Source: Gossypium raimondii (taxonomy: Eukaryota > Streptophyta > Magnoliopsida > Malvales > Malvaceae). Taken from it: DNA of 64,000 nucleotides. Each line of letters opens with the position of its first letter. Positions within the stretch are counted from its first letter, which is position 1. This document shows, in pieces, positions 14,328 to 40,554 of the stretch. A program made the translations under genes and the position numbers. The stretch covers positions 54,517,924-54,581,923 of the forward strand of contig NC_068570.1 in NCBI RefSeq assembly GCF_025698545.1, read 5' to 3'. The notes under the pieces were generated by a model. That model had not been told where the DNA came from. It searched no databases and was given only the letters and a program-made list of their open reading frames with translations.

Positions 14328-17300
14328 TCAACGCCTCCGAACTCGCCTGCCATTGGGATTCATCGGTTCTGCTGCCGGACCTTCTGCTGCAAGATCCATC
14401 CCGTATACACTGCTGACACTCCTCTTCCGACTTGAAAGCAGACTCGAGCTCTCCTCGCTGGATGCAAAGGCCTTCAACATCTCCGATAACAAAGATGGAC
14501 AACATTCCTCCAAGTGCTTGAACCCTTCTGATTGCATCACCGCTGCAGAATAACGGAAATATACATTAGCTTAAGCATTACCATTGCCAAACAAGAAAAT
14601 ATGTTAGTTTGTAATGTAATACTAATTCCAACTTTTCAACAGAACCAGGTTCATGTGATAAAAAATGATCTATCACAATCACTTTCCATTGTCCTCGGAA
14701 CAAACACATTCAGAGCTTGTCAACGATTGACCGGCCATGCATAGAATTGACTGAAAGAGACAAATGACTAACTGGTGCATCCAACCAAAACAATTTCACT
14801 TTACTACGAACAAATTTTCAGGGATAAATTCCAACATCTAAAGCATTTAACAGTTTTGAGCACACAACTTGCTATGCCTAGACCAATATCATGCACTAAT
14901 TCGTTTCCCAGCATTTTGCAGAACAGTTTTATCTAAAAATTTCAAGTACCAAACTGCTTGGAGGTTAAGGGATTAGGTGCATTAACCTTGAGGAGGGTTT
15001 TGTACTTGAAATACAGGCATCTATCGAAGAGTTAGACATGCATAGGAAAGCAGACTTCTGATGCAAACAATACAAAAACCCAAGTTTACATAACCTGGAA
15101 TTTGCACCGGTAGTATTTTGAACACACACCTCCCAAGTTTGACGGAGTTGCAGCAAATTTTAAACATATGGCCTTAAGCTGTGCACAATGGTGCTGCTCA
15201 GCAAGTGCAAGGGTTGTTGCCACCGTATCAGCATTAAGTTCTTCACACAATTTTGCCTCACACAATACTTTGAGTCTATCTAAATTGTACAGATCAGCAG
15301 CAGCCAAAAGATGCTGAACCATATTGGTAGATGTACACATAGATGTGGAGTCTACAATTTCTTGTACATCAGGAAGCTTGTCGGTATAAATAAACAAGAG
15401 CATTGCCTGGAAGAACAAGAAGAAGAACAGGTAAGGGTAATGATGAATTCTCATTTGAGATGATCTTCATTAGCCAATAAATGAAAAAGCACATCAACAT
15501 AACTAAAATCTATACTTGGATCTTCACATCCAGGCAAATATAAGAACCACAATTTGTTGAATCCTATTTCTAATCAAATGGATTACGAAGAATCACATTA
15601 TTTCAAGGGTTTGCTTGTGCAATATTCTTAATTTTAGGTTCATTCTTCAAAGTCCAAAAGAAACTAATAGGAAGCATCACCTTGAAGATAGAAGACTCAA
15701 AATCTTTCATTACTTCTTTATCCAAATGAATTCTCATTTGAGTTAATCCTTTCATTAGCCAATGAATGAAAAAGCACATCTATCTAACTAAAATCTACAC
15801 TTGGATCTTCACATCCAGGCAAATATAAGAACTGCAGTTTATTGAACCCTATTTCTATTTCAATTAATTGAGAAGAATCATATATTTATTGCAAGTTTTT
15901 CCTTATGCAATATACTTAATTGTTGGTTTATTCTTCAAAGTCCAAAACCAAAAGAAAGTAAAAGGAAGCATCACCTTGAAGATAGAAGGCTCAAAATCTT
16001 TTACTACTATTTTATCCAAGTTAGGGTCTCCAACGAGCCCGAAAAACTGTGCTTTAAAAACAGGTGAACGTGCAGCAAGGATCAACTTATGTGCTTTAAA
16101 TGTCTCATCACCAACTTGAAACATTATATCACACCCAACTTCGGATTCTAACAAAGCTCTAAGATTCTGACCCATGTCTGATGGCGGTACAGGAATAGAA
16201 GACAGTTTTGGTCCCTCAAGGCGAGTTCTGACTACTCCAACAGTGCAGTTCATGATTAGGCAATCATCCTTAATGTAGTCAGAACTTTCTAAAGTTGTTC
16301 TTCTAAAGAATCGTTTGTAGCCCCTGAATGCATGGAAGAAAAGAGGTAAAAGCAATATAATATGCACATATTATAGATTAAATATTATAGTAAAGCTGAA
16401 AGAAACTTAGATGCTCAAAATAAAATGCACATATTTTAACAACAACAGAGATGAACATGAAACATCGAAAGTGATGTTAAAGGAAATCACCAATAAAACA
16501 CTTCTTCAAAAAGAGAAAAGTTACTGGTTTCTGCCCCTAGAACCATTTTCTTTTTTCTTGTTTCAGTCATTGCCTCACTGGGTCCTGTCCCAGGCTCACT
16601 TAAGTTATACTAACAGCTTCTAAGTGGTTTTTACCTTATATGAGTTCATAATTCTCAGACACCTTAAATTGGTGCAATGCTTAGATCCTCAAAAATAAAT
16701 GTAGGAGAATTTGCCAAAAAGATGTAACCCTACCAAACGCTTAATAACAACTCCATTGAACCTTACGGAAAAATAACTACAATTCAAAGTGACTACACAA
16801 ACGTCTCAAAATCTATATAAAACAATTATTTTCATATCAACTTATAGCTTAAACACGATAATGACATGGGAAATTTAACGAACACACACGAATTGCTGAA
16901 CCTCCATTTTCGATAAAAATTCACCAACATATAGAACCATATCACTATAATGTAAAAAAAAGCAAGTACCCAATAAATTATAAAATTATTCTCCCAATAC
17001 ACAAATATATATAGAGTTTCAAAAAAGAACATAAAATTATGAACCAAACTCCTAAAGTCTAAACCAAAATTATTACCACATGCTTCCTCTGTACTTCAAC
17101 GTATAAGGCCCACTCTCCAACGCTCTGTCAAAGTGACTATGAACCTTATGCTTCCCTTTCCCGCTCTGGTCAATAAGGGTGAGCTCGAAAAGCGCTCGAA
17201 CATCCGTACCTTCGCTAGCCAAGGCAATGAAAACCGAAACATACATCGCACTATCCTCCGGATTTTTACCGTCGGGGTAGAAGTAAATCGCCCAATCGTA

Positions 17301-17480
17301 GCCTCCAACCGTAAAAATATCGCTTTGTATACATTTCCCGGCACCCATCCCTTTCGCCAACGAGTAACCCTTGATCGTGAATTGGTGTGACCCGTTCACC
17401 GTCTCACTCACCGATTTCGATTCCGAATCCTTGAAATCTTCCATGTTGCTTTTCTTTCTTTTTTTCATCGAGTTCCCCAA
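14328..17480 (-). CDS. BPM: BTB/POZ and MATH domain-containing protein (BPM family)
   Basis: Minus-strand exons are 17480-17077, 16323-15975, 15406-15130 and 14542-14328. All junctions are GT-AG and in phase (404+349+277+215 nt), giving 414 aa, close to the family length of about 410. A MATH domain spans about 33-165 ([39 protein letters not shown]). A BTB/POZ domain spans about 199-315 ([20 protein letters not shown]). A BACK-like helical tail follows ([20 protein letters not shown]). The C-terminus GRRVRRR could be a nuclear signal. BPM proteins are substrate adaptors of CUL3 ubiquitin ligases: MATH binds targets such as ERF/RAP2.4, class I HD-ZIP and PP2CA proteins, and BTB binds CUL3. In-frame ATGs also occur at 17468 and 17444, so the N-terminus may be shorter. 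Intron 2 contains a duplicated exon-2 end (separate entry). Confidence 0.93.
15442..16020 (-). repeat. Tandem duplication of the exon 2 end within BPM intron 2
   Basis: Two direct copies of about 285 bp, roughly 15442-15723 and 15727-16020, share blocks such as CTTGGATCTTCACATCCAGG and AGGAAGCATCACCTTGAAGA. The higher-coordinate copy includes the last codons of real exon 2 (ending ...KDFEPSIFK at 15975) and its splice donor. The lower copy repeats this as ...KDFESSIFK with the same GTGATG donor, now inside intron 2. It could act as a decoy donor or partial exon, or be a neutral duplication. Confidence 0.8.
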
Positions 17481-18035
17481 AACCCTAACCCTAGAAATTG
17501 CATTTATTGGGTAAATTTGGAGAAATAAGTGAGGGTATAATGTGGAAAATAAGAGGTTAAGGCTATTTCCTTATAAAAATAGAGGTGACGGTGATTGTGG
17601 TGGCAGCAGCGACAGCAGCGGCGGCGGCGATAAAATGACCGGAGGGGAAATGTTAAAGAGGTTTCTTAGAGTTTTTTTTTCCTTTTTCTCCTGCTTCGGT
17701 GGAGTTTGGGGGTTGGTTAACGGGAATTGTGTATGCAATATATATTTTTAAACAAAATTAGCATTTTTTTATGATGTAAAAAAGTAAATAATAAATGGCT
17801 AATATACTAAAAAGCCCTTAAACGACTACTAAACTTTGAAATTTTGATGCATTAGAAATTTAAAATATATAAAATTTATAAATTTATAGAAAAAATCATT
17901 TTATAATATCAGATTTTATAAAATATCAAATTTTATGTATTTTAAATTTAATAATAATATAAAAATATGATAATTTATAAAAAATTTAAAATATATAAAA
18001 TTAATAAAAAAAAGTTTGGAATGAATCTAATTTAG
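17481..18035. other. BPM upstream region
   Basis: This stretch lies upstream of the minus-strand BPM start. 17500-17660 has leader-like G/C-richer sequence with short GGCGG/GCAGC trinucleotide runs (near 17600-17630), probably 5' UTR or proximal promoter. 17750-18035 is AT-rich. A 69-codon + strand frame at 17542 is treated as non-coding. Confidence 0.4.
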
Positions 18036-18558
18036 AAGTGTTCGTGGATTGGGTTCAGGTCGGGCTTAAGTATGATATTAATATACTTTATGCTTGCTTA
18101 AGCTTAGCCCGGCCCAAAAGATGAGCTTAAAATTTTGCCCAAGCCCGACTATATTTGTAAATAACTAACCTAAGTCTGTTTTTGCCCACTCATATTATTT
18201 TTAAAATATATATTTATATTATTTTAATTTAATATTTAATATTTTAATATTTTTTATTTATTAAAATTTTATATTTAGTTTTCTTAACATTTTTTTAATA
18301 ATTACATTATAGTAGTATTATATATTACTATAGATTTAATTTTTATGTGTTATAAATTATATAATATAAAACATTACAAACTTAAAAATATATTTGGTCG
18401 GGTTGGGCTTGGGCCTTAAATGTTGAAGCCCAAGCTCGGCCCATGTTTTAAATAGGTCATTCAAACCCATTTTTCAGACCTAATATATTTTTTTTCAAAC
18501 CCTCCCAATTTCGAGCAAGCCTTCGGGCTTGGACGAGTAACTCAATCCATGAACAGGT
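18036..18558. mobile_element. hAT-like MITE with near-exact target duplication
   Basis: The left end reads AAGTGTTCGTGGATTGGG and the right end, reversed, ACCTGTTCATGGATTGAG. Flanks CTAATTTAG (18027-18035) and CTAATCTAG (18559-18567) match at 8 of 9 bases, fitting the 8-bp duplications of hAT elements. The interior has GGGCTTGGGC and CGGCCCA runs and no coding capacity. Length is 523 bp. Confidence 0.68.
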
Positions 18559-18567
18559 CTAATCTAG

Positions 18568-21500
18568 TCAAATGATTATCCAGATTTAAATGTATTTGGA
18601 GAATTAGTTGTCTAAGTTCATTCTAGTGATGACAAATAATAGTTTTAATATTTTTATAATTTTATATAATTTTAAATATTTTAGATTGTATATATTTTAA
18701 ATTTCAAAATAATAATATTAAATTTAAATATGTACATATATAAACTAAAAACTTATGTCTAAAATAAACTTGGGCAAATGGTTGTCCACATTTAGATGAA
18801 CTTGGAGAACCATTTGTCCAATTCATTCCCTATATGTTAAAAATTTATATATTTTTAAAAAATGTTAAATACTTTTAAATATTTTTTCACATATCAAATG
18901 TAAAGCTATCACTTATCACCGTGCTATTGATCATTAATACCACATTAGTGTGTTTTAATGGTGTTAATCAGGTACCTAGGAAAAGTACCAAGTTAGCTTA
19001 CGGTGTTTAAGTTTAGTTCCCAATTAGATCCAAAAAAAGTTAGGCATCTAGGTACCAATTGTTAAGTTTAAATAGTTTCGATGAAACCTTCAATTTCTGT
19101 CGTACGTTAGGACGAGTGAGGAGTGTTACAAATGTTTCCCATATGTAATGCTAGAAAAACAGGCTCGAGCCAGAAAAGCCTGCTCGTGCTGATCCAAGCT
19201 TGTAACAAATATGATCTGAGAAAATTCGAGCCTAACATTGCTTGAGCTCAAGAAAGCCCGAATCTATAAGAATTTGAGTCTGAGATCAATTTGGTCCAAG
19301 ATCGAGATAAATCCAATCTAAAGCCCGAATTTATAGCTGAACAACCATAATAGACCATAATTAATATAATTTTATGATATTACTTAAAATATGTTCATAA
19401 GCCTTACATATTTATATTAAAATTTTATTAATAGCAAAAGTAATTAATAATAAATCTTTATGTTAAATTATAAAGTGAAATAAATTTTAAAAATATTAAT
19501 CGAATATAAAATATTTTAATATTACAATTACATAATGTATAATAATTATTAAAATTAATAATTATTAAAATTTATAAAATTTAAATTTAATGATAATATA
19601 AAATATATAATAACATAATATATTAATTTAACAATACGATAAGTACTTATAAAAATTGATTAACATGATTTATTATGCGATACTGAGAATATTACTAATA
19701 ATTTTAATTTTAATGATTTGGGAATTTAGGTTTTGTTTTTATTGATTAATGTTTAATGTTTTAATTAATCTTATTATCTTTATATTAATTTTTAATTTAG
19801 AATGAGTTTATTTTTATTTAGGTTGGGTTTTGAATTAAAGTTTAAATTGGGCCTACGTTTGGGTTTGTTTGGTATTGGATATGGTTTTAAATATATTACA
19901 CATTTAATAAGTGTAAAGTTGGTTAATTTCGTTTGAACAATTTTTAATTTCAAAACCGAAATTGAACCGATAACATCAAATCAACTGCTTACCGAACCCA
20001 ACCTTTGCATATATAAACTAGTAATATAATAACTGATAATATTTAATCATTAATACATATATAAACTATTTATTATATTATATTATATTATATTATATAG
20101 TAGGAGGACTAACTTTTAAATGTATGAAGAGTATAGAGACTTAAAACATATTTCAACCAATATAATAATAAACAATAATATGTAATAATTAATATATTAT
20201 GTACTACTATTATAGTATATGATCTAGTATTACATAATGTAATAATATATTATAAAACTATTAATACATATATAACTATTGATTAGTCCAAAATCAAAAT
20301 CGAATTAACTAATCGATTTGCTTGAATTGGCTCGATTTAGTCAGTTAACAGTGGCGTAGCTAGGGGCTGGTAGGAGCCCCTAAAATGGAAAATTTTCCAT
20401 TTAGGTGCTTTAAAATTTTTAAAATTTTAAATTAGTAAAGGTCAAATTACATTTTGGCCCCCTAAAAATGATAATAATTTTATTTAATCCTTTAAAATTT
20501 ATAAAAATATAGGCTATTCAAATGGTAAAATTGCATTTTTAATTTTGTAAAAATTAAAATTTAATTTTGACCCCCCTAAATTTTTTTTATGGTTTAGCCC
20601 TATCGGTTAAGTAGGTCTTAATAGCTAACTATAATAGATGATATACTATTATATAATAGAATAATATAGTATGTAACTATTACTAAAACTTTAATACATA
20701 TATATAACTATGATTATATTATATATTATAATAAAAGATATAGTATTACATAATATTATAATGTTTAATTATTAATGCATGTATAAACTATTAATATATT
20801 ATATATCATATGCAGGGGCAAAGCTAGAAATTTTTTTTAGGGGGATCAAAATTAAATTGTAATTTTTATGATAGTAAAAATGCAATTTCACCGTTTTAAT
20901 AGCCTATATCTTTATAAATTTTAAAGGATTAAATCAATTTTTTATCATTTTTAAGGGGTCAAAGTGTAATTTTACCTGCACTAATTTAAAATTTTAAAAA
21001 TTTTAAAAGGCCTAAATGAAAATTTTTCCATTTTAGAGGGGACCGCAGGCGTTGCTAGCCCCCTAACTATGCCCATGATTATATGAATATGATATAGTAT
21101 TATATAAAATAATAGTAACGCTAACTTTCAAGTGTACAAAGAGTATAGGAACTTAGAGTATATTTCAACCAATATAATAATAAACAATAATATATAATGA
21201 AAAGTAATATATTTAAAACTATTAATACATATATATAACTATTAATTGGTCCAAAATCAAAACCGAATTTATCAATCGATTTGCTTGAATTGGCTTGATT
21301 TCGTTGGCTAAGTCAGTTTAAATCTCTAACTATAATAGATGATATACTATTAAATAATATAATAATATAGTATATGAGGAGGATCCACTTACACCGATGT
21401 AAACCATTTTGTATCTCTTTGTATGACTAATATTTTAATAATCTAATTATTGAATTTATCGATATAATTTTACTTGTCCTGCACGTAAAATTTTTAATCG

Positions 21501-22393
21501 ATCAATATTTCTATCATATTGATCTAAAATACTATATATATTTATATTTATTGAAGCAGTTAAAATTTTTCATAAAACAAAATAGTTAGAATTTTTAATT
21601 TACATAAAATTTGACATACATAATATATATGAATGAAATACAAAATATAATGGTTGGATCGTGAAAATATTAATCATACAAAAAATACGAAATGTAGTAA
21701 AACTACTTTAGTTTTATACTTTTACACTAATGTAAGTGAATCCTCCCATAGAATATAACTATTACTAAAACTATTATGCAGTATATATAACTATTATTAT
21801 ATTATAAATTATAATAAAAATATAGTATTACATGATATTATAAATTTTTAATCATTAATTCATATATATATAAGTTATTAGTATATTATTTATTATATGA
21901 TATGATATAGCATTATATAATATAGTAGGAGGCTAATTTTAAATGTCTTGAGAGTATAGAGAATTAGAACATATATATAAACAAATATAATAATAATTAA
22001 TAATTAATATAGTATTACTATTATAGTAGGTGCTATAGTATTACAGAATGTAATAATATATTTTAAAACTAATAATACATACATAACTATTAATTGGTCT
22101 AAAATCAAAATCTAATTGACATCTTGATTTGCTTGAATTGGATCGATTTGGTCAAATAAGTTTGTTTTAGTAACTAATTATAATAGATTATATACTTTTA
22201 CATAATATAATAATATAGTATATAGCTATGACTAAAATTATTAATACATACTAGTATTCCTATCACAAGCATATGCGTGTGGAAACGATGTATTTGGAAT
22301 ACTGGTGTGCGTTAGAATATAACATACAATAAATAATAAAAATTTTAGGTTTGGAAGTAATTAATAAGGACACATGCAATTTGTAAAATATTT
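18568..22393. repeat. AT-rich repeat cluster with repeated segments and MITE copies
   Basis: No gene was seen. A segment with GTATAGAGACTTAAAACATA-like sequence, followed by AATATAATAATAAACAATAA, recurs near 20125, 21140 and 21945 with drift. Each copy is followed by a CGAATT/GATTTGCTTGAATTGG block. Between the first two copies lie two opposed copies of a GTGGCGTAGCTAGGGG-type MITE (separate entry). The arrangement looks like nested insertions plus segmental duplication of about 0.9-1 kb. Confidence 0.55.
20345..21085. repeat. Inverted pair of a CAGTGGCG-type short element
   Basis: A minus-oriented copy (about 20345-20610) and a plus-oriented copy (about 20812-21085) share blocks such as AATGGAAAATTTTCCATTTA and TTTATAAATTTTAAAGGATT in opposite orientation. 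The GTGGCGTAGCTAGGGG end and its partner near GCTAGCCCCCTAACTATGCC form the terminal inverted repeat. A related end (CAGTGGCGGAACTACG) lies in RCA intron 3 at about 44751. There is no coding capacity. Confidence 0.6.
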
Positions 22394-22409
22394 ACTACAC
22401 CAAAACAGA

Positions 22410-22715
22410 CTTTTAGCGGCACGTTAAGAAGCGCCGAAAAAACGCCGCTAAAGAACGTGTGGCTAACTTTAGCGGCGCTTGTCCCACAAACGCCGCTATA
22501 GACCGAGACCTTTAGTGGCGCTTATCCCACAAACGCCGAAAGACCGAGACCTTTAGCGGCGTTTTTCCCACAAATGCCGCTAAAGACCAAGACCTTTAGC
22601 GGCACTTCTCCCACAAACGCCGCTAAAGACCAAGAACTTTAGCGGCGCTTTTCCCACAAACGCCGCTAAAGACCAAGACCTTTAGCGGCGCTTTTGCCAC
22701 AAACGCCGCTAAAAA
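22410..22715. repeat. Left subterminal AGCGGCG palindromic array
   Basis: About six units of roughly 45-50 bp of the form TTTAGCGGCGCTTTTCCCAC-AAACGCCGCTAAAGACC. Each unit can fold as a hairpin. Such arrays bind transposase in CACTA systems; that role is inferred here. Confidence 0.8.
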
Positions 22716-23059
22716 CATGATTTAAAAAAATATTTTAATTAAATAATATTTATTTCTATCATAAATATTATATTATGTTTTATTTTTAAAATTTAAACTT
22801 TAAACTATAACTTTTAAGGATAAAAAATATTAAATTAAAATTTATATTAAAATTTTAACTTTAAAGCTAAATATAAAAATTAATGAATTTAAATTAAGAA
22901 AATTAAAACAAGTTACATTCTATATTAGAATTACATAAGAGAATTGTTTACATTCTATATTAGAATTACATAAGTTCTGTTTACAAGTTACATTCTATAT
23001 TAGAAAATTGTTTACAAGTTACATTCTCTCGTGACCAACTCTCAAAATCAACTCTTTAA

Positions 23060-23232
23060 GGGATCTTTTTTCCCTTTACTCAGTGTAACCGAGTTGCAAC
23101 AGGTGGTTTATCCATACTTTTTTTGCCATCCCACATGTAAACATCACCTATAGCAGTAGCAGCCCAGTACTTACCAACAGAAATGCTTACGATTGTTTTC
23201 TCACAAAGGGAATATAGCTGTACAAATTCATC
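23060..23232 (-). pseudogene. RCC1-repeat protein fragment (captured exon)
   Basis: Reading 23232 down to about 23064, the minus strand gives a short piece ending ...GDVYMWDGKKSMDKPPVATR then LH and a stop. I recognise the style of plant RCC1-repeat/ankyrin proteins, whose blades end in motifs like GDVYMWDGKKGKDKPPVATR. A preceding EKTIVSISVGKYWAATAIG stretch fits one RCC1 blade. Only one blade is present and it ends in a stop, so this is a gene fragment inside the CACTA-like element. Confidence 0.6.
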
Positions 23233-23657
23233 CAAATGAAGTGAAGTAGTTTTAGAATTTAAAATAATAAATTAATAACACAATTAAGAGATCAGTTAGC
23301 ACATTAGGAAGGGAGAGAAGTATATTGTGAGAGAATAACTTGAGTGCCCACATGACTTTCGCAAAGTAAAATATATCAAGCAATTACAATTAGGATTTTC
23401 AACCTTTCACTGTCCTTAAACCTTTAGAAAGTATGATTACAGAACATACTTTAGCATTTTCCTAAATAGATAATTTTGCCAGTCTCTCTTTCTCAGCACT
23501 CTGGAATGCAGATGGATCTGATCCTTCATTGAGCCCTCCTGAAACCTTCATGAACTGCACCAACCAGTAACAGCATGAACTTGAGCTTCAATGATAGAAC
23601 AGTTTCTAGTGGTACAATTGTAACGGGCAAAAGAAGATAGGAACGCCTAGTAGGTAC

Positions 23658-23831
23658 ATGGGTGCTCACCTCTTCATAACATTCATTACAAAGTCCATAG
23701 GCAAAAGGTTTTCTCTCCTTGTGCCTACATAGCACTTCATCTAAGCTGGTTTCTTTTGACCCAGTATTTGGTTGTTTTCTAGTTAGTGAACTAGTTCGAA
23801 GCTCCCTCTCCTTTTCCTTAAAATCCTCCAT
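23658..23831 (-). pseudogene. Unrecognised exon-like fragment with Cys motif
   Basis: A minus-strand frame starts at ATG 23831. It encodes a charged N-terminus (MEDFKEKERELRTSS) and then LCRHKERKPFAYGLCNECYE, a C-x13-C-x2-C arrangement that could bind metal. A good donor (GAG|GTGAGC) follows at about 23670. The open frame continues past it to 23526 with hydrophobic sequence that looks intronic. I do not recognise the family. Its position among captured pieces on the same strand suggests another captured exon, or the start of a chimeric reading frame. Confidence 0.4.
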
Positions 23832-24950
23832 CTGGTCATAAGTTTAAAACAGTGGAGGTATTTTCAAGAAATGAAATCAATATTTAAAAAATAAATGCAA
23901 CAGAGGATAAGTTAACTACATGCAGAAAACAACAAATTCAACATAACACTTGTTGTAATGATAAAAAATTGGCATCAAATTTTTCATAAAATTATTTAGA
24001 TACTCCTTAGAGTGGACATAATCAATAAGAGTAATAGAAGTAAAGATTCACTAATCAAATTCTACCATACAAAAAAATAATAGCAATGACACGTGTTACA
24101 ATTACGACAACAACAACATAGCTTTTCTCCCAGATGGTAATTATAAACAGAAATAATTAAAATTGAGAATTAAATATACTTTTTTTCATATTTCATTTCT
24201 TTGGGTCCTTTTCTCTTTTTTTAATGTGCCAAAAAAAAGAAGAAAAAAATCCAACAACATGCCAACTATACTTGCTGTTCCTAGATCTCCATAGTGAAAC
24301 AGCAAGGGAAACCACAATGTAGCAGACATGTCATTAACAAAACATACCAACATATAATTGTCAACATAAATGATACCATTTTTCAAAAGATAAAATCAAG
24401 GCTTTGCTTGGTAAAATGGAAAAAAAATTGGAAAGATTAAAGATTGAAGGAGAAAAATAGAAAGAAAATATTTTTGTCCTTTCTGTTGGTGCACTTGATA
24501 GGAAAGATGGAAAAATAGAAAGAAAAGGTAATTTATTTTCATCCATTGCTTGATAGATTAGAAAAATGAGAGGAAAGCAAATTAAAATTTAAGATGTGAA
24601 AGGCAAATTACCAATGAGCTTGAATACATTTTATTACTTTACATAGTGTTAAGCATCCAACCTAAAACTACTTGGCAGTATATGAGGAAACAAAACTTGA
24701 ATATAAGACAAGAAACCAAAGACTTAACAGACATGAGGTTACACCAATTAACACTGCCCCTCACGAGCTCAACAAAAGCCCACATGTGACCAACCTCATG
24801 TTAAGCATCCAACATAACACGGAATTCATATTCAATCACATTGTTCACATAGGCTTAATGAAAGGCGCATAAATCTATTGCTAAAAGTTGGGTTTGAATC
24901 TCCTTTTCTCTACTCAAAGATTACTTCCAATGCCAATTGAAACAAATACC

Positions 24951-25384
24951 TTAGCAGGAATCCATTTTACATGACCAATAGCATCCATAGCAGCCTGATG
25001 AAAGCCTTCCATTGATGCAAACCATTGTTCAGTTGCCCTAAATATAGTAGGCTTCTTTGTACGCCAATCATATAGATACTTATGTTCTGCATAACAGAAT
25101 AGGTATGGTGATTACTGGCATGGGTACCCTTTTTTGTTTAACACTCAGAAAAAGAATAGCAGCCAACAACAGACCTTTATAAAATTATCACAAAGAATAA
25201 TAATAACAACAATAATAGAAGTAGTAGAAAGATGGGCTTTAAATGAAAAACCTACCATATGATTCCTCCATTATAATGGACAATTTTTCATCCAAGTATT
25301 TGATAACTGCAGCATTACCATCTCCAAGAACATCAAGCCCATTAAACTGCCCAGCTTCCTCGGTGAACTTTCCATTATCATGGT
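24951..25384 (-). pseudogene. Organellar isoleucyl-tRNA synthetase fragment, two exons
   Basis: Minus-strand exon A (about 25384-25260) reads NGKFTEEAGQFNGLDVLGDG and then a KYLDEKLSIIMEESY stretch. Exon B (25087-24951) reads [20 protein letters not shown] followed by [20 protein letters not shown] and WIPAK. These match the editing-to-catalytic-domain part of class I IleRS of the plastid/mitochondrial type (OVA2 in Arabidopsis). The intron between them has GT-AG ends and the donor after exon B is intact. Only about 85 residues of a roughly 1,100-residue enzyme are present, without HIGH or KMSKS motifs, so this is a fragment, not a gene. Confidence 0.85.
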
Positions 25385-25390
25385 CTTAAC

Positions 25391-25618
25391 TTGTTCCAGG
25401 TTTATCATAGATCAGAATATGAGAACTGCAAGTTTCTATTATGTATATCTTACCTGAGTCACCAAAGCATAGAGTGGATGAGTCACATAACTGAAAAGGA
25501 ACTGTATGATAACCCTGAAAAAGTTGCAAATTTTGCATTTTATGAGAAAAGTTTTCACTTTGTTAAATCAAAATGTTGGCCTAAAAAGTTGCATGAACCC
25601 ACCCCATTGAGACTCTAA
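25391..25618 (+). other. Unrecognised open frame within the CACTA-like element
   Basis: A 75-codon + strand frame holds SIEWMSHITEKELYDNPEKV and then a FAFYEKSFHFVKSKCW stretch. Its composition looks protein-like rather than AT-rich random, and it lies between the IleRS and MLO fragments but on the opposite strand. No family was recognised. It may be a further captured fragment or chance. Confidence 0.25.
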
Positions 25619-25842
25619 TGATAACGTCTTCAATATGTTCATGGTAGCAAGATCTTATCGTAAATTCATACTGAAATTTGATGAAAAAATGACTTATTAG
25701 ATAAGGTGATCAAACAATTGCATATGAAACACACAACAGAAAGGAAAGAACTACATGTACAAATTTGCATATCAAACAATTTGCTCATAATCCCAAACCA
25801 GAAATACATGTACAAATGAATCAAACATGCTATTGTACTTAC

Positions 25843-26384
25843 AATTAAGGGGATAAAAGGTAGCCATAAATATGAATACCATCCTGTTGATGAAGAGCAA
25901 ATTGATCATTAATCATTAGTAAGCTCAAAAATATCCATCACTATGTTCATATGATGACACTATTGAACTTAATTTTTTATGAATATGATGAGATACTTAC
26001 CATGTGTATAGGCAAGCAAGAACAAGACAGCAATGAACCAGATGATTGGACTGCAAACACAATCATTAACTTAGCATCGTAAAGTTTTAACTAATAAAAT
26101 TGAAGAACACTTGGTTAGCTTGAGACTACCAACCTGATCCCTATAACAACTTTAAAATCATCCTCTAATGATCTCTTGATGTATTTCTGGAAATCGAATT
26201 TTGTTTCGTTTTCAAGTGCCAAATGTGCCTGAAAGCATTGCAGATTGAAGTTTCAATTAGAAACAAGAAAATAGGAAAAATAAAATAACATAAAACTCCA
26301 TAGAAATCCATGGCTTAGCTTACCATGATAAATCCATGCCTCAATGTCAGGTAATCAACCTTTGTGACTGACCCAAAGAATTGT
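25843..26384 (-). pseudogene. MLO-like protein fragment, four exons with introns
   Basis: Minus-strand exons are about 26384-26324 (QFFGSVTKVDYLTLRHGFIM), 26228-26150 ([20 protein letters not shown], continuing [11 protein letters not shown]), a third near 26050-26000 (SPIIWFIAVLFLLAYTHG) and 25883-25843 (GWYSYLWLPFIPLI). Each junction has GT and AG, and phases join without a stop. This is the conserved central part of plant MLO seven-transmembrane proteins (powdery-mildew susceptibility and calmodulin-binding family), covering the third cytosolic loop and following membrane segments. About 65 of roughly 500 residues are present. Retained introns show the capture was from genomic DNA, not mRNA. 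Confidence 0.88.
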
Positions 26385-27214
26385 CTAAAGAAACAGACCT
26401 ATAAATAAAGAATCAAATCAGAATTCATAACCATAAAATGTCACCTAAAGAAAAAGAATCCCATGCTATAAATTCAATGGTTGCTGGACTTCTTTTACAA
26501 AAAGGACTCGGATTTTTCATTTTTCTTGAAATGCTCAAGTTTTTTCGTAGAAGTCGGGCCCTCCAATTATATGAAAAAAAGTTCAAATGTTCATCTGATT
26601 GTACTTACAATCCAAAGAGTTAAGGTAGAACGGCTCCAAAAGCTCAGATGCCTAAACCTGAAAACTAATAATCATAAAGTAAACCAACAGAATTAGAAGT
26701 AAAAAAAATAGTTCTAAAACTAAAAATATAAATGAAAAGGCAAAAGACAAAGAGAAAGACATAAATGAAAACGCAAACACAAGTAAAGATTCATACCTGA
26801 AATCAGTCTCCGACAAAGCAACCAAAAAGAAACAGACAGACCCACAACAATAGATTTCAAACAAAGAGTGACACAGTGAGTTTTGCAATAGAAAGCTTAG
26901 GGATTATCCCTCACGAAAGTAGACAAATAAAAAACCAAAAAGAAACAGACAGACCGACATCGATAGATTTCAAACACATAGCGAAAACAGGGGATTTCAA
27001 TATCACCAAAAAAAAAGAAACGGCAGACAAAATCTTTGGGTTTCTCCCTCTCACGAAAAAGAATGAGGGGAAATATTGAAATGAAACCGAGAGAGAGAGA
27101 GATAATGAGAAGGAAGCGGGATATGAAAAGTCTGAAGAAAACGGGAGTGAAGAAAAGTCTGAAGATTAGGGATTCAGGGGGAAAAATTGGGGTAAAATGG
27201 CGGGATTTTATAAA

Positions 27215-27730
27215 GTTAAATGATTTTTGCGGCGTTTTCTAAAAAAAACACCGCTATTGTCATTTTGAACAAAAATTATTTTATTTTTTTTATTTTATTT
27301 AATATAAATAAATTTTTAGCGGCGCTTTCTCGAAAACGCCGCTAAAGACTCCAACATTCGTTGCAATTTTCAAAAACACCGCTAAAGACCCCAACATTAG
27401 CGGCGCTTTTCCAAAAACGCCGCTAAAGACCCCATCATTAGCGGCGCTTTTTCAAAAACGCCGCTACAGCCCCCAAAGGTAAGAAAATGACGCCGTTGGG
27501 CTTTGGTTTTTTGTGGCGTTTTTCCTAAAAAACGTCGCTAATGCTCATTTTTAGCGGCATTTTTTTGAAAAACGCCGCGAAGGCTCATTTTTAGTGGCGT
27601 TTTTTGAAAAACACTGCTAATGAAAAACCCGCTAATGCTCGATCTTAGTGGCGATTTTCTTAAAGCGCTGCTAATGCTCAATTTTTACCGGCGTTTTTTA
27701 TCCAAACGCCGCTAAAAGTGTCGCTAAAAG
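27215..27730. repeat. Right subterminal AGCGGCG palindromic array
   Basis: Eight or so units such as TTAGCGGCGCTTTTCCAAAA-ACGCCGCTAAAGACCCC run up to the right inverted repeat. They are more divergent than the left array (for example TTAGTGGCG, CACTGCTAA). Confidence 0.75.
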
Positions 27731-27746
27731 TCTATTTTTGTGTAGT

Positions 27747-28490
27747 TTGAAAAAAATAAAACATATGGTGTTGTCATCAATCACAAGTTAGTGTCAAATT
27801 GACTCGTGAAACTAATTCAATCAACAACATTTTGTCATTTCCCTAATCAAGTTGGTGTCCGGTTGACTCGTGACATCAACTTAGTCTGTGGCTTAAATAA
27901 TAGTATAAATAAAATTGGTGGAGGGAATAAAATGTGCTTAATAAAATTAAAATGCTTGGCAAAAAATCAAAATAAAGCTTTGGTGAGTAGTAAGTTAAAG
28001 GTTTTAACAATTCAATCAGTGTGAGTTCAAATTCAACAATATGCATTTTTTATTGTATTTTTTAAAATATAAAAAAAACCTAAAGTACCCTTGAATTATA
28101 TAAATTATTTTAAATACAAAAGATAATTTTGTCATTTCCCTAACCAAGTTGGTACTCAGTTGACTCATTACACCAATTTAGTAAAGGGCTTAAATAATAA
28201 TATAGATATATAACTATTATTATATTATAGGTTAAAATAAAAGATAAAGTATCAATAATTATGCATAATTTAGTATATTATAAAACATATCTATAACTAG
28301 TAATACATGAAATGTTATTAAAATTTTAATATTTTAATAAAATATTTTTTTTATTGAATTAGATTTTGAATTGAGTTTTAACTTTTACAAAATGCATTTG
28401 GGTATTGAGTTTTTTTTTTTAGATTGAGAGTTGACTTATAATTAGTTTATTTTGACTTTTCGTAATAATGAGTATAAGATTCAAGTTTGG
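27747..28490. other. Gene-free spacer
   Basis: AT-rich. A CAAGTTGGTGTCCGGTTGACTCGTGACA-type block (near 27848 and again near 28145 and 27787) is repeated, indicating a degenerate local repeat. No gene was seen. Confidence 0.4.
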
Positions 28491-29773
28491 TGTAACACCT
28501 CTTACCCGTATTCGATGCCGGAATAGGGTACGAGGCATTACTAAAACACATACACTTGTATACGTATTAAACCGATTTATAAAATTTCATTCGAATTAAA
28601 ACTTTTTAAATTATTAACGTGCTTTTATAATTCTTTACAACCTATCCTCGAATTATTATATTCATAAATAATAGAGCCTATAAGACTCGATACAAACTCA
28701 TTCATATACTCAATTTATCCATTAAATTATTTCAATCTTGAATAATTCACATTATGCTAAAATCAACACTAATAACAATCATAAATCTCTTCATATTAAT
28801 TTCACATATTACTACATTACATATCACGAGCATATGCCAAAAGTTCGTATACACAACCATCAACAAGCTCATTTCTCCTTTAGTCGACTAGTAAATTAGC
28901 CTTAATATTCATACCAACCATTAAATCTCACCATTTTATAACATCTCATAACCAAATGATTCTAATAACAAGATATTTTATAATCATCCTTATGACTACA
29001 GATATTTCACAAAGCATGATTATCACCCAACATTATCTATGTACCAAAATGACTAATTCACAAGTAATAACAATTCAATGTTTTATTTCAGTTCCATTCA
29101 ATTCATAACTCTTCGTGTTCACAATTCAAATTAATTTCTCAATCCAATTTGCATTTCAATACTACAATAATTCTTTTAATTCAAATCATATCATAATAGT
29201 TTTCATTCAACTCACAAACAATTCAATATCGATATTTACCTTATGTTTATTACTAAACATATTATTCAAATTTCAACAATTTCTATTAATAAATTCAATA
29301 CCAATACGAATCTACTATTCAATTCGGCGTCTATCGATTATAAACGAACATATGGCCAATTATACACGAATCATTCATATATTTTATTTTTCCTCCTCCT
29401 CCTCTCCATTCCACAACCTTAGTGTACATAACACTTTTAGAAATAGCATTCTCTATAGTTTCACTATCCATTCAACTTCAAATAAGTTGTCTAGTCGAGT
29501 TACAGTCACTAAATTATTTTTATCCGGAGCTACAGAGCTCCAAATTAAGTTTCGTTAATTTTTCCCAAAACTAGACTCACATATCTTCTTACATAAATTT
29601 TTTAGAATTTTTGGCTTGGTCAATCAGTACAGTTTATTCTTTAGAGTCACTCATGTTTCACTGCTCAACATCTCTGACCTCTCTTCACTAAAAATGAATT
29701 ATCTCATTGTACAGATTTCAGATGATATCTTCGTTTGTTTTCTTTGAAAATAGACTCATTAAGGGGTGTTACA
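28491..29773 (-). mobile_element. Short solo LTR of the gypsy family, reverse orientation
   Basis: It starts TGTAACACCTCTTACCCGTA at 28491 and ends GGGGTGTTACA at 29773. The left end is the complement of the CATCGAATACGGGTTAGAGG-type LTR end seen at 33884. Blocks near 29490-29760 match the window-edge LTR (about 490-770). A TTTGG pentamer precedes it and recurs one base after its end, a probable target duplication. At 1.28 kb it is half the length of its relatives and probably carries an internal deletion. The 147-codon frame inside is AT-rich chance coding. Confidence 0.68.
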
Positions 29774-30117
29774 TTTTGGCTCAATATAGTATATTTAGGT
29801 TTTGGAATATGAGTATTATGTTTATAAATTTAATAATAAAGATAAAAGTTATTCAATTATCAATATATTATAATAATAAACAATAAAAGATATGTTTGTC
29901 AATTAACATACATATCGTATAATAATTTTTACATATAAATAGTAATTTAATTATTTTATATAAAATAACTTTATTAAATATATATCATTTATGCTTTTTA
30001 TAAGGTAAATTTGAATTGTGTTCTCATTGTATAAAAGTAAAATGAATCATTAAATTTGAAATTAAAATATTTATAACTTAAAATGAATCATTCACTTTTG
30101 AAGAAAATTTATTCGAC

Positions 30118-30258
30118 CGAGTGTCTCACCATGGGGTGCACTGTTTTTCTTTGTAAAGAAGAAGGATGGGTCATTACGATTACGCATAGATTATCACCAG
30201 CTGAATCGGGTGACCATTAAAAATAAATACCCTCTTGACCTGCTACTAATTATAGTGG
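30118..30258 (+). pseudogene. Ty3/gypsy reverse transcriptase fragment
   Basis: A frame beginning near 30123 reads [20 protein letters not shown] and then [18 protein letters not shown], the N-terminal RT block of gypsy polyproteins (usual form SPWGAPV..VKKKDGS.R.C.DYR.LN..T.KN.YPLP). It breaks off in degenerate sequence after about 45 residues. It is a non-functional remnant. Confidence 0.85.
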
Positions 30259-30519
30259 TAGTTTAGATATGTTTCGACATTGAAGGAACTTATTTTCTAG
30301 CTATTTTAGTATTAATTATTGCATTTCCGATACTTAGTAGTTCAATATTAAATATCAGTAAAATAAGTGTTTTTACACAATTTTGAATGTTATTGACTTA
30401 TGTGACCACTAATGCAACCATTAATTTTGAATGAAATTGAAAATAATTTAGATGCAACCACTAATGCGGACGAGCCCATGGAGGAAGTAACCAAACCAAT
30501 AGCTAAGTCGGAGATCTAA

Positions 30520-31190
30520 AAACTGAAAACACCAAAGATATCAATCCCATCAAGGCTAGAGGACGAACAACAGAGGGACGAGGCTTATTTTGTAAGTATT
30601 CCTAACTTAGGGTAGGTTTGGATGGGCGATTGATTGGGTGCAGTGCGGTGCATTTAGTTTAATTTTTGTCTCACGCTACAGTATCGCTAAAGTATCTAAT
30701 CTCACCGTCACTACTGTTTTTACACTAACCGCAGGTAAACGCACCGTCCATCCAAACTCACCCTTAGTTAAATCCCTCAATATCAAATTTTCACTATTAT
30801 AACGTATTAATAAAATCCCAAAATATGCCAAGTATTTAAAAGAAACAATTGCACGACATAAGAAAATGGAAAGAGGAGAGCAAGTTAACATTGATGCCTT
30901 ATGTAGTGCGTTAATTGTGAAAAAGATACCCCTAAAATTAAAATATTCGAGTGGTTTTACGATTACAATAAAGATAGGGGATTAGTATTTTAATAGGGCC
31001 CTTTACGATTTAGGGGCCAGTATAAACTTAATGGCCCTATCGATTTATCAGAAACTTGGAATCAATGAGTTAAAGAACACATCTATAATGATATAGTTAA
31101 CCAATAGATCTTTGGTACAACTGAAAGGTGTACTCGATACGGGAATTTATAATCCCTGTCGACTTTGTAGTCCTCGTCACATTTCCTGGT
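30520..31190 (+). pseudogene. Degenerate gypsy gag/aspartic protease remnant
   Basis: Near 30540 the frame SRLEDEQQRDEAYF resembles the end of gag. Near 30890 NIDALCSALIVKKIPLKLK precedes the protease. At about 31008 ALYDLGASINLMALSIYQKL contains the DLGAS form of the DTG/DSG active-site motif. The order and style fit the Athila/Tat branch of Ty3/gypsy. Stops and frame changes interrupt it, and a MITE sits inside. The RT piece lies upstream rather than downstream, so the locus is rearranged. Confidence 0.75.
30610..30763. mobile_element. Tourist-like MITE nested in gypsy remnant
   Basis: It begins GGGTAGGTTTGGATGG and ends CCATCCAAACTCACCC, a 16-bp inverted repeat with one mismatch. TTA flanks it on both sides, as expected for PIF/Harbinger insertions. 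It is 154 bp with no coding capacity and interrupts the gag-protease remnant. Confidence 0.8.
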
Positions 31191-34631: not shown

Positions 34632-37091
34632 TGTCGAAACCATCTTTTATTTTGAAAAAAAATCTAAAGGGATCGACTTTGAAAATAAAAATGGGAGTCG
34701 CCACCGATCTTTTATTGGGGTGTGATCGGATCACCTTGAAAACGATTTTAGGTCTACGAATTTTGAGAAAACAAGTTTGGGAGTAGGTTACACATGAGAA
34801 AGGGTTAACACCCTCGCAACGCAAAAAAATAGGTACCGAATTGATTGCTTAATATCTTAGTTTTGAAATTTTGAAAAGATTTTAAAATACGATCCTTTGA
34901 AAAGAAAACTTGAATAATTGAATTGGATGATAAGACATACCCATTTCAAAGAAATAAATTGTCACACCCAGTGAGATAGGGTGCAACAGTCCAATCTTCG
35001 AAATTAAGTTTGTCTTTTTTAAATTTAAAATTCATGCCTTTTTAGAAGGATATTTGGTTATTTGGGTCAAACGAGAAATCAGAATCCAGTAAGTTAGGGT
35101 TCAATTTCTCGAAATTCCTAAACACCGAATATTGTCTTTATTTTAAAATCCTTAACTCGAGATAACAAAATGTCATATCCAGTGAGTTAGGATTCAACAT
35201 TTTGAAATCCTGAAAAAATTTATTTAGAATTTGTATGGTTTTATTGCAAAAGAAATACTTCGCTATCTAAATTCATCAAAAAAAAATCAAAGCCCAGTAA
35301 GTTAAGGCACAATCCTCTCAAGAATTGCAAATACCAAGTATTTTGACAATTTACGAAATAAGATGATTTTAATGAAACACAATTTTTTTAAAAAATGTAG
35401 TGTGATTAAGCGGCAACGAACCATGCAAAATTCGAATACAACATGCACACCAATGAGTAATGAACAATAAATAAACATAACCTAGTATAACAATAATTTC
35501 AATCATACATTATGCAAATATCAACATCAACATTTAAAAATTATTAATCTAAAGAAAAATAAAATGTAACTCATAAAAAACAAAAATGAGAGAAAAGAAA
35601 TTTGGAATTAAAAATATGTACACAAAATTTTAAATTTACAAAAAAATTAGTAATTAATGTGAAGATTTGAAATAATTTAATAATAGAACTAAAATGAATA
35701 AAATGTTTAGATAAATTTTAAAGAAAGAATTATGAGAAGAAAATAAAATGAATAAATCTTGAAATTAATATATATATTAATCTAGATAAGTAAAACCTAA
35801 TGTAAATAATAATGTACATATAATAATAATATACCAATTAATTTAATGGTAAAAAAAAACAATAGATTAATTTAGAACTAAAACAAAATCTCAGGGATGA
35901 ATTTGAAACAAATGTGTAAACGACCAAATTAAGAACTGTTTAACATCAGAGGGACTATTGCAGCAATTAAACGCACAAATCCTCTCTAGCGTACAGATCA
36001 ATCCTTCCAAAGCGGCGTCGTTCTATTATGTATTCAATTGGAACCAAAACCAAATATAATGTATAAATTAAAATAATGATAAAAATTGAATTAAAAATAT
36101 ATAAAATACAGAAGGACCTGTTGCGCAAATGGACCATTGAGACAAAACGCGCAGGTCATTCCCTCAGATCGAGTCACCATGCGGGTCTGAGCTCATTACG
36201 ACGCCATTTTGAGGTCACCTCAATCAGCCTCAAACGACACCGTTTCTCAACGTATATAAATGCCACATTAAACCCTAATTAGTAACTTTTATCATTTTTA
36301 AAACAAAAATTAAAAAAAAGGAACCCTAGGCCCTTTTTCTTCTGCCACAAAACTATTTCACCCCCTCTCAGACTTCGATTTCGACCAAGCGAGTGAGGTC
36401 CGGCGTCCAGGTAAGCTTTCTAACCCCTTCTCTATTACTGCGTTTGAATAAAAAAGAGACGAAATAAAAAAATAAAGAAAAGCAAAGAGTTTATTCACCT
36501 TTCGATTTTTTTCGTTTTCTCGATTTTTTGTTTTTTGTATTCAATATCCGTGTGTAATCCTTTTACGCTTCGAGATGACCTTTTATAGCCAAAACTAAAG
36601 ATAAAAATCAAGAAAATTTACTGAATCCTCTTTTTTCTATCATTTTCTTTTTTTCTTTATTCTTGCTTGTTGCTTGCTTGTTGCATGTGTACGACCGACT
36701 GGAGGGCAGCGTGGATCCGGTGTGCGAGGAGTTGAAGGCGTGCATGTGCTTGGATGCTAGAGTGCTGCGACGCTGCTGACGCCAGAAGGATCTAGAAACC
36801 CTAGGGGTTTCTGGAAAAATTTGGGCCGTTTGAGCCATTATAGCTTGGTCAAATTGAGTTAATTTTGGGTAGTTTAGGTTAGAATGACTTGGGTTATGTA
36901 TTTGGTATTTTTAATTTCGGTTTGGGCTGATTGGGTCGTGAGTCTGTAAATGGACATTTATTTAATTGAATTTTTAGTTTAATTTTAATATTTGTAAAAA
37001 AACTAGGCTGTTAATAGTGGATATTTTAATTTAATTTATTTATTTTTCTTTTTTTTGGTATTTATTGGGTCGGGCAAAATGTGTTATTATA
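34632..37091 (-). repeat. 3' LTR of the non-autonomous element
   Basis: 2,460 bp. On the + strand it starts TGTCGAAACC and ends GTGTTATTATA, where the expected terminal CA has become TA. It is colinear with the other LTR throughout. Confidence 0.9.
36240..36420 (+). promoter_or_regulatory. Gene-like promoter and leader antisense to the LTR
   Basis: On the + strand, TATATAAATG at 36253 is followed by AAACCCTAATTAG, a pyrimidine-rich leader and a strong donor CCAG|GTAAGC at about 36411. The second LTR has the same arrangement (TATATAAATG at 40973, donor at about 41130). This looks like the start of a plant gene (TATA box, telo-box-like AACCCTAA, 5' UTR, first donor) but runs opposite to the element. 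Confidence 0.4.
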
Positions 37092-37249: not shown

Positions 37250-38115
37250 TCCACTCATTGCGACGTCAAGGAGATAGGATTATTGGCTTTAATCTGCTCC
37301 ACTGCAACCTTAGGGAGATAAGATTTGCCATCTTCAGTCTACCCCACTGCCACTCAGGGAGATAAGGCTAGTGGCTTAAATCTACTTCCCTACTACCTTG
37401 GAAAGATAAGATTCGCCGTCTTCGATCTGCTCCACTACTACTTAGGGAGATAAGATCTCTAATCTTCAACCTATTCCACTACTGTCCAGGGAGATAGGAC
37501 TTATAATCTTCAACCTATTCCACTGCTATCCAGGAAGATAGGACTGGTATCTTCGATCTGCTTCGCCGTCAGTACAGGAATGCAAGGTCTGTTATTTTCA
37601 ACCTACTCCACTGCTGCTCAGGGAGACAAGGCTGGGGACTTCGACCTGCTCCAGTACTACTTAGGGAGATAAGATCTGTAATTTTCAACCTACTCCACTG
37701 CAGCTCAGGGAGACAAGGTTGGGGTCTTCGATCTACTTCGCTGCCAATACAGGAAGACAAGATCTGCTATTTTCAACCTACTCCACTGCTGCTCAAGGAG
37801 ACAAAGCTGGGGACTTCAATCTGCTCCACTACTGCTTTGGGAGATAAGATATGTAATTTTCAACCTACTCCACTGCTGCTCAGGGAGATAGGATTCATAA
37901 TCTTCAGTCTATTCCACTGCTGTCCAGGGAGATAGGACTCACAATTTTCAACCTATTCCACTGCTGTCCATGGAGATAGGATTCACAATCTTAGACCTAT
38001 TCCATTGCTGTCCAAGGAGATAGGATTCACAATCTTTAACCTATTCCACTGCTGTCCAGGGAGATAGGATTCACAATCTTCAACCTATTTCACTACTGTC
38101 TAAAGAGATAGGATT
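37250..38115. repeat. 44-bp tandem repeat array in the element interior
   Basis: About 18-20 units with a core like CCACTGCTGTCCAGGGAGAT followed by AGGATTCACAATCTTCAACC. Late units are spaced 44 bp (near 37871, 37915, 37959 and 38003). Early units are more varied. It forms about 40% of the internal region and has no sustained open frame. Confidence 0.85.
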
Positions 38116-39271
38116 TATAACTTCACCGATCTGTTCTCTAAGAAACATGACCTGTATAATTCATTTTATGAACCTAATTATGCCTAGTGATTAGGATGTC
38201 ATGATCAAAATAAATCAAATTCTCCTAACTAGACGTGTATGAATGGTGTTTGCATGAATGTAGAATGCTATTTTTTTTAGGATGATCCTTCTTTATCACT
38301 TAGGTTATCATTGCTCGAAATTTATTAAGGCTTTATCACTAACGTGCTACAACGCCTTCTTGCTCGGCTGGGGTTTTCAAAGAAACACTTAGTCAGATTG
38401 CCCCCACTGTAAACCTCAAAGTTCAATCCACTGAGACGCAAAATTTGTACCATCATTCTCCCACTGTAACCCAAGGGTAGAAATATATGGCTTTTCCTCA
38501 ATCATCTCCTATCACAATTCAAGGATACAGGATCTAAATCTCTCTGGTCCCTTACACCATTCCCAGGGTGTCGTACCAAAGGCTCATGCACAAATGGAAG
38601 CTTTCTTCTTCGAGGAAACCTCTTCCTATTGCCTGGTGATCATTGCTTGCTTGTTTATTTAAGTTTTTTCATCAACACGACATCTTGTCATTTTGTTCAA
38701 TCAATATTTTTGACAGCAAAATCTAAAGAGAAAGTCCTAATTTAGACTCTTCCTTTTCAGATTTTCAACCTTTAAACTTGGTGCGTTCTAAACAATAGTC
38801 CTGTTTCAGACTCCTGTATTATTTAGAAACTTCTAGAGTAATATGCAAAACTTCCATTGTGAAAGTTTTATTAGTCCATTAATCATTATTCCAATGCAAC
38901 ATGCTTGCAAAAAAGGTCATAACAATAGATAAGAATAAAGTTGGTTCTGAGCATAACTCGAAAGGAATAAATTATCAAAAATAGCAAAAAAATTGATTGG
39001 GAATGTGTATATTGGAAAAGAATGAAGTATTCCAAGAACAACAAAATCAAAATAAATAGTATGAAAATTGAGTGCCCTAAATATCGCAGCTTGAACTTCT
39101 CTATACAAACTTTCTTAAGACCATTCTGAGTTTGACATGTGTTTAGGAGATCTATAGTGCTTTGTCGATGCCCCAAGATGTCGCTTACCCTTTCATGTTG
39201 ATTGAAAATCAAATTTTCAATTTTCGACAATAAAACAGAAAACAATCAATTTTGCGGCTTGACTTTCTAAA

Positions 39272-40505: not shown

Positions 40506-40554
<49 letters not shown>

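Follow-up and report, generated by a model that had tools for sequence, protein, structure and literature searches.

CACTA transposons have terminal inverted repeats that begin with CACTA/G, and target duplications of 3 bp are typical of the superfamily, whereas Pack-MULEs belong to the Mutator superfamily, which has other ends and longer target duplications. The present analysis concerns a 5353-bp element of Gossypium raimondii, located at positions 22394-27746 of a 64,000-nucleotide stretch (C6:54517924-54581923; this whole stretch is referred to as the window), together with its relatives in the 750.8-Mb assembly, which was searched as a whole. The element contains pieces of an MLO gene, an isoleucyl-tRNA synthetase (IleRS) gene and what appear to be BRF1 and RCC1 genes. 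It is very probably a degraded, non-autonomous Pack-CACTA that was built by the stepwise joining of modules, including modules probably acquired from two other CACTA groups. Elements of this kind are already known, namely Tgm-Express1 and the Pack-CACTA elements; the cotton element is an unusually well-documented member, as its relatives show how the mosaic was assembled.

Tgm-Express1, from the wp allele of soybean, is described as a CACTA element of 5.7 kb that has captured five gene fragments, the exons and introns of which are spliced as cassette exons (PMC1947982). The cotton element is similar in being a CACTA element with several intron-bearing gene fragments, although the genes and the plant are different; spliced cassette exons are a property of Tgm-Express1, and the cotton element is known from its DNA alone. 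Moreover, chimeric transcripts of Tgm-Express1 are reported to start at the host F3H promoter, whereas here a trunk with a TATA box and a leader lies inside the element and is common to six copies. The Pack-CACTA elements of Arabidopsis and maize, as outlined in PMC8903248 and in the review PMC13317346, have CACTA ends, coding DNA of several loci and fused elements, and the cotton element resembles them in all three respects. It departs from that outline in that pieces of one donor are out of order, some junctions exhibit microhomology, and a shared 5' trunk is followed by alternative 3' cargo. The model of capture given for plant Pack-CACTA elements is tandem insertion followed by re-mobilisation (PMC8903248). 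For animal Pack-TIRs, template switching with microhomology has been proposed, and multicopy elements are described as having moved after capture (PMC8277862). Microhomology at capture breakpoints and multiple copies after capture are also features of the cotton element, but the animal account concerns animal elements with terminal inverted repeats, and in cotton the mechanism is one that we infer. A further likeness exists with the rice Pack-MULEs, mentioned in PMC8903248, in which an element with terminal inverted repeats likewise captures genomic gene pieces. The element was not described in the titles or abstract openings of the open-licence literature on CACTA gene capture, Pack-CACTA and cotton elements; its end motif was not found in a literature text search and had no match in viral contigs.

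The original prediction for this DNA was a CACTA-like transposon with AGCGGCG-rich inverted ends that had captured pieces of at least three unrelated genes from genomic DNA, introns included. The inverted ends are borne out by the window itself: TTTAGCGGCG occurs there 12 times, every time inside the two end zones (shuffled mean 0.03), and the outermost 40 bp on either side, 22394-22433 and 27707-27746, form inverted repeats with 33 of 40 positions identical. Short subterminal repeats are present at both ends in both orientations, as in the CACTA superfamily. Six complete relatives, each with part of the window element's sequence, were found in the same genome: three elements that carry the MLO piece and have both ends (L010, L012 and L014) and three outside the MLO lineage (U1, U2 and R1). 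The 5' terminus CACTACACC is exact in four of these and has one substitution in the other two (CATTACACC and CACTAAACC), the 3' terminus GGTGTAGTG is present in all six, and perfect 3-bp target duplications flank every one (TTT, TAT, TTC, TTG, AAT and AAA). The 3' end was not found for two other MLO elements, L009 and L011. Across the genome, the CACTA-type end pattern (at most one mismatch) has 1757 matches (855 + 902), with none for a reversed-pattern control, which suggests a very large element population. As in Pack-CACTA elements, a scan of five of the element's six frames revealed no transposase domain, copies are present at several sites (six elements with the MLO trunk), and the host coding DNA has donors elsewhere that lack element ends (L013 and L023, in addition to the BRF1 homologue L038). 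By its relatives, the window element belongs to the non-autonomous CACTA elements of the Pack-CACTA kind, and its movement would depend on a transposase encoded elsewhere. The parts of the element are as follows.

22394-27746, minus strand (sense strand for the recognised cargo): whole element, delimited by its inverted ends, both of which are common to relatives
27707-27746, minus strand: 5' terminal inverted repeat, ACTACAC..., without the terminal C (end alignment)
27223-27706, no strand assigned: 5' subterminal AGCGGCG/CGCCGCT repeats in units of ~40 bp (repeat scan)
27206-27212, minus strand: TATA box (TATAAAA) of the shared trunk, a putative promoter element kept in all six aligned trunk copies (trunk alignment)
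26797-27180, minus strand: presumed 5' leader exon with a presumed start, CT-rich, ending CAG/GTATGA, the boundary lying before GTATGA (trunk alignment)
26658-26796, minus strand: presumed first intron (GT...AG), with the acceptor kept in five of six copies (trunk alignment)
25377-26653, minus strand: MLO gene piece with seven exons, ~344 bp of its donor L013 missing (exon joining, Pfam, donor alignment)
25756-25777, minus strand: 22-bp filler at the deletion within the MLO piece (junction comparison)
24328-25381, minus strand: IleRS piece Y, two exons, introns kept, corresponding to 4937-6064 of donor L023 (PDB, NCBIfam, donor alignment)
24129-24331, minus strand: IleRS piece Z, corresponding to 2199-2399 of donor L023, ahead of the part that gave piece Y (donor alignment)
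23247-24132, minus strand: BRF1 piece with exon-like stretches 23831-23670 and 23554-23462, common to the U group of CACTA elements (homologue L038)
22394-23245, minus strand: 3' end of the R group, comprising the RCC1 exon (to ~23060), an AT-rich stretch, subterminal repeats and the 3' terminal inverted repeat (R-copy alignment)
22438-22713, no strand assigned: 3' subterminal repeats in 43-bp units (repeat scan)
22394-22433, minus strand: 3' terminal inverted repeat, ...GGTGTAGT, without the terminal G (end alignment)

The MLO gene, which had been placed at 25843-26384, is confirmed but has a larger extent, with seven exons within 26653-25454 and a part that reaches 25377, where IleRS starts directly. 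GT donors follow all seven exons and AG acceptors precede the last six, which agrees with the claim that introns were kept and that capture was genomic. The exons join in frame into 145 codons with no stop and match Pfam Mlo at 5.7e-64, with profile columns 309-378 (~70) absent; when the element was read through in single frames, Pfam failed to detect MLO, the exons of which change frame, and the PDB gave no match to the piece. A genome search with part of the MLO piece returned 16 matches, seven of which (96-100% identity over the full 542 bp) correspond to the window element, five further elements and L013 at C10:56.25 Mb. L013 aligns with the cargo in the MLO part only (26653-25778 at 97.4% and 25755-25377 at 94.1%), keeps the ~344 bp (the missing exon) that are absent from the element, and has MLO exons flanking the captured stretch on both sides. 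It contains no AGCGGCG motif and no match to the element ends in the stretch fetched (9.5 kb around this donor and 10 kb around the IleRS donor). On these alignments, L013 is the MLO donor, an ordinary gene without end motifs. The exons of the element differ from it at 9 of 435 sites and the introns at 32 of 842, a contrast that constraint on the donor by itself would be expected to produce.

The organellar character claimed for the IleRS piece is in agreement with its matches: in the PDB, Staphylococcus aureus IleRS (1ffy) scores 6e-17 vs. 8.6e-9 for the best chain labelled cytoplasmic, and NCBIfam TIGR00392 scores 1.2e-20, which, the piece being a fragment, is far below the model's full-length cut-off. 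These scores fit a bacterial-type, organellar enzyme. Four matches were found in the genome, namely the window, L012, L014 (limited to the first 255 bp) and L023 at C9:32.37 Mb. The latter has IleRS domains in several frames and aligns with the cargo at 25381-24328 and 24331-24129, and the AGCGGCG motif was not found in the stretch fetched; L023 is, on this evidence, the IleRS donor, likewise an ordinary gene without end motifs. The order of the gene is scrambled in the element, where donor positions 4937-6064 come ahead of 2199-2399. The U group carries a different block of this gene, reaching up to L023 2262-3176, in five of the nine loci examined (L025-L028 and L030-L034, the examined loci with the full BRF1 query). 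One IleRS gene (L023:2199-3176) has fed different blocks to the U group and the MLO lineage, an observation that is unexpected under random capture. Piece Z is without the changes shared by the U copies and was probably derived from the IleRS gene, not from a present U element; an origin from present U copies was rejected because the U-specific changes are absent from the window copy, a comparison of only 138 sites in which one T-run site points the opposite way. In an IleRS intron, 24647-24810 holds ~150 bp between two copies of GTTGGATGCTTAACA, in the donor too, and by eye this looks like an old small insertion.

The stretch 23658-23831, described in the original prediction as an unknown exon-like piece, is exon-like but no longer unknown. 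The exon-like pair matches, at ~80%, the gene-like C11 locus L038, in which Pfam detects a TFIIB repeat (1.3e-10) and a BRF1 TBP-binding domain (2.4e-4, below the curated cut-off), and by this route we read the piece as BRF1. L038 has no end motif, and since it is a separate locus, BRF1 as part of the IleRS donor was rejected. The three genes first claimed have thus become at least four. The letters of the BRF1 and RCC1 pieces alone gave nothing useful in PDB and family searches; the RCC1 exon (50-63 aa) had no family match and a best PDB E of 0.011. Counting the window, L014 and the gene-like C11 locus, the BRF1 piece is present at 18 places; of the 15 others, two were read end to end and are the CACTA elements U1 and U2. 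When 11 of the copies and that of the window are placed in a tree rooted on L038, the window and L014 copies come out as a pair nested among the U copies. From the RCC1 part onwards, the remainder of the element (23245-22394) corresponds to the 3' end of the R group, which is found, besides the window, L012 and L014, in 26 of 40 scored rows out of 416 candidates, a lower bound; the remaining 11 of the 40 match over the first 54 bp only (the U side). All nine R copies examined run into the same 3' end, two with an end-motif substitution, and one, R1, was read end to end. Because both modules recur in other multicopy CACTA groups, they were probably obtained second-hand from those groups. Of the captures originally claimed, MLO and IleRS come from host donors, whereas BRF1 and RCC1 were probably not captured directly from host genes. 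The search for parent loci had a similar outcome: those of MLO and IleRS were found, but no RCC1 donor gene was identified in the genome comparisons made.

The relatives also reveal how the cargo varies. Six elements (the window, L009-L012 and L014) share a trunk that comprises the 5' end, the TATA box, the leader, the first-intron donor (6/6) and acceptor, and the start of MLO. After MLO, the window element, L012 and L014 go on to IleRS and end in RCC1; L012 is without the BRF1 exons and L014 without part of IleRS, and BRF1 is thus present in two of the three (the window and L014). The proposed search for other copies of the element was thus successful, with L012 and L014 sharing much of the cargo. 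The duplications of these two differ (TAT in L012 vs. TTC in L014), which speaks against L012, L014 and the window being segmental duplicates of one locus. L009-L011 depart from MLO at 25629 into other cargo: pieces of MOB1 and diphosphomevalonate decarboxylase (MVD), on the same strand as MLO, were detected in L010 (six frames) and L009 (two frames), the two elements covered by the domain scan, and L011 aligns with both throughout at 95.6-96.5%. In L010, the region with these pieces that follows the shared MLO piece is 4258-6758. The trunk may itself be composite. At three other BRF1 places, approximately 228 bp of it recur ~2 kb upstream, and the leader stretch 26680-27145 resembles sequences at C3:22693, C6:5757, C13:1215, C1:12692, C8:4549 and C6:60381943; because of these two likenesses, the leader may be a further captured piece. 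The leader-like sequences sit within ~25 kb of contig ends and are perhaps a subtelomeric family. In the window, the cargo is confined to the element: Pfam detected none of MLO, IleRS and RCC1 on the minus strand of the flanks (16992-22393 and 27747-30748; a weak test for single exons), and self-comparison of the window gave no second cargo copy. As far as tested, cargo was seen neither running on into the flanks nor lying together at a locus without the ends.

Such a mosaic very probably arose stepwise. At the outset, a CACTA 5' end carrying a TATA box and a leader exon would have been joined to a piece of the MLO gene; one branch would have gained pieces of the IleRS gene, and the element would then have taken up the BRF1 piece and the RCC1-bearing 3' end known from two other multicopy CACTA groups. 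This explanation draws on the relatives' ends and target duplications, the MLO and IleRS donor loci, the shared modules and the junctions, all of which were observed. MLO and IleRS overlap by 5 bp at their junction, and IleRS and BRF1 by 4 bp at theirs; joining these sequences at random gives overlaps at least as long with P 0.007 and 0.024, respectively. A few extra bases lie between BRF1 and the R-group end. None of the 11-mers of the 22-bp MLO filler recurs exactly on the same strand, either elsewhere in the element or in the donor stretch fetched. Because of the 5- and 4-bp overlaps, the filler and the out-of-order IleRS pieces, the evidence favours template switching, in repair or replication, or microhomology end joining over simple capture by tandem insertion. 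The mechanism may differ by part: MLO-IleRS leans to template switching, and the BRF1 and RCC1 modules fit element fusion.

The main rival is the model proposed for Arabidopsis Pack-CACTA, according to which neighbouring CACTA elements at each donor were mobilised together with the intervening DNA and later underwent internal deletions. This is possible, but on the whole unlikely. The model is published with examples of fused elements (as outlined in PMC8903248), and both the BRF1 and RCC1 modules, which bring parts of other elements as fusion predicts, and the IleRS gene that fed the U group and the window's lineage, as if elements had once been nearby, would suit it. However, the AGCGGCG motif is absent from the 9.5 and 10 kb fetched around the two donors, the IleRS pieces stand in reversed order, with the later part of the gene first, and MLO adjoins IleRS directly through its 5-bp overlap, with no element remnant between them.

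It should be noted that several points weigh against the stepwise assembly of a CACTA element. The window copy starts with ACTACAC at both ends, the terminal C/G being missing, and its flanks (22391-22393 and 27747-27749) are unequal, TCA/AAT or CAA/AAA, with no 3-bp duplication; trimming or another insertion mode is possible. Exact CACTA ends are found in relatives and not in the window copy. Because this copy lacks the terminal C/G and matching flanks, yet its relatives have both, we take it as a degraded CACTA member, placed there on the strength of the relatives. The identity of two modules is also less than firm. That of BRF1 depends in part on a model match below the curated cut-off, and the RCC1 identity of the 3' piece, as originally proposed, is likely rather than certain, since the piece's own letters have no family match and L042, a relative with a longer piece, matches RCC1-like PF25390 at 8.7e-6, below the curated cut-off. 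The direction in which both modules were transferred is inferred from copy number and range, and full-length readings outside the MLO lineage cover only U1, U2 and R1, so that the remaining places with BRF1 or RCC1 are called CACTA from shared modules. The T-run site in piece Z is common to the window copy and U and differs from the IleRS donor. Finally, the junction between IleRS pieces Y and Z has 0 bp of overlap as scored (3 bp if one window base changed later), and a score for the trunk/MLO junction would require the trunk's own source.

As predicted, the recognised pieces in the window lie on one strand (minus). Moreover, all recognised cargo is sense to the trunk, i.e., MLO, the two IleRS pieces, BRF1, RCC1, MOB1 and MVD, and no antisense domains were found on the window's plus strand (two of three frames) or on the minus strands of L010 and L042 (three frames each). 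The trunk could start one sense transcript through the exons; such a transcript is plausible and would agree with the spliced cassette exons of soybean Tgm-Express1 (PMC1947982). It is very improbable, however, that this amounts to a chimeric gene with a host function, in which the trunk drives an MLO-derived protein. The conserved TATA box, leader and splice sites of the trunk and the stop-free, in-frame run of seven MLO exons (145 codons) speak for such a gene, but by eye the first two MLO exons and the sequence before them offer no in-frame ATG, and with the splice sites considered the MLO reading frame does not carry on into IleRS. In addition, of the nine codons that differ from the donor, five alter the amino acid (C to F and L to H among them), and the sister copies swap everything after MLO. 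A host-selected MLO protein was rejected on these nonsynonymous changes. No host function is indicated; because the MLO coding part is altered at residues kept by the donor, the element most likely has no present role, beyond a possible chimeric or silencing-prone RNA. A wider but doubtful proposal is that the promoter-bearing trunk (TATA box, leader exon, first intron and MLO exons) serves as an exon-trapping platform. Its 3' cargo would be swapped through template switching guided by microhomology, with host genes as well as other high-copy CACTA groups that carry genes as partners; pieces in the sense direction alone would persist, and chimeric transcription units would result. A genomic patchwork, in which unrelated gene fragments came by chance to lie between two AGCGGCG-rich repeats, would agree with the missing target duplication and inexact termini of the window copy, but its probability is negligible, as it is already refuted by L010, L012 and L014, where much of the arrangement recurs with good ends and perfect duplications.

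Other features of the window lie outside the element. A direct repeat of ~2.5 kb (34632-37089 and 39294-41831, 91.7% identical) possibly represents the two ends of an LTR element, and a tandem array with a 44/88-bp period is found at 37266-38120. An H/ACA snoRNA, snoR143, lies at 47167-47332 on the plus strand (73.4 bits), and a MATH domain coding stretch at ~17121-17390 on the minus strand (PF22486, 2.5e-18).

The pickup of gene pieces by DNA transposons has been explained differently in different hosts, by tandem insertion for plant Pack elements and by template switching for animal ones, as outlined in PMC8903248 and PMC8277862. In cotton, a single genome offers two donors, several junctions, sister elements whose cargo has been exchanged, and two source groups, which makes the order of events and the joining mechanism directly testable. 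The 1757 end-pattern matches suggest a large population in which to test how such elements are assembled.

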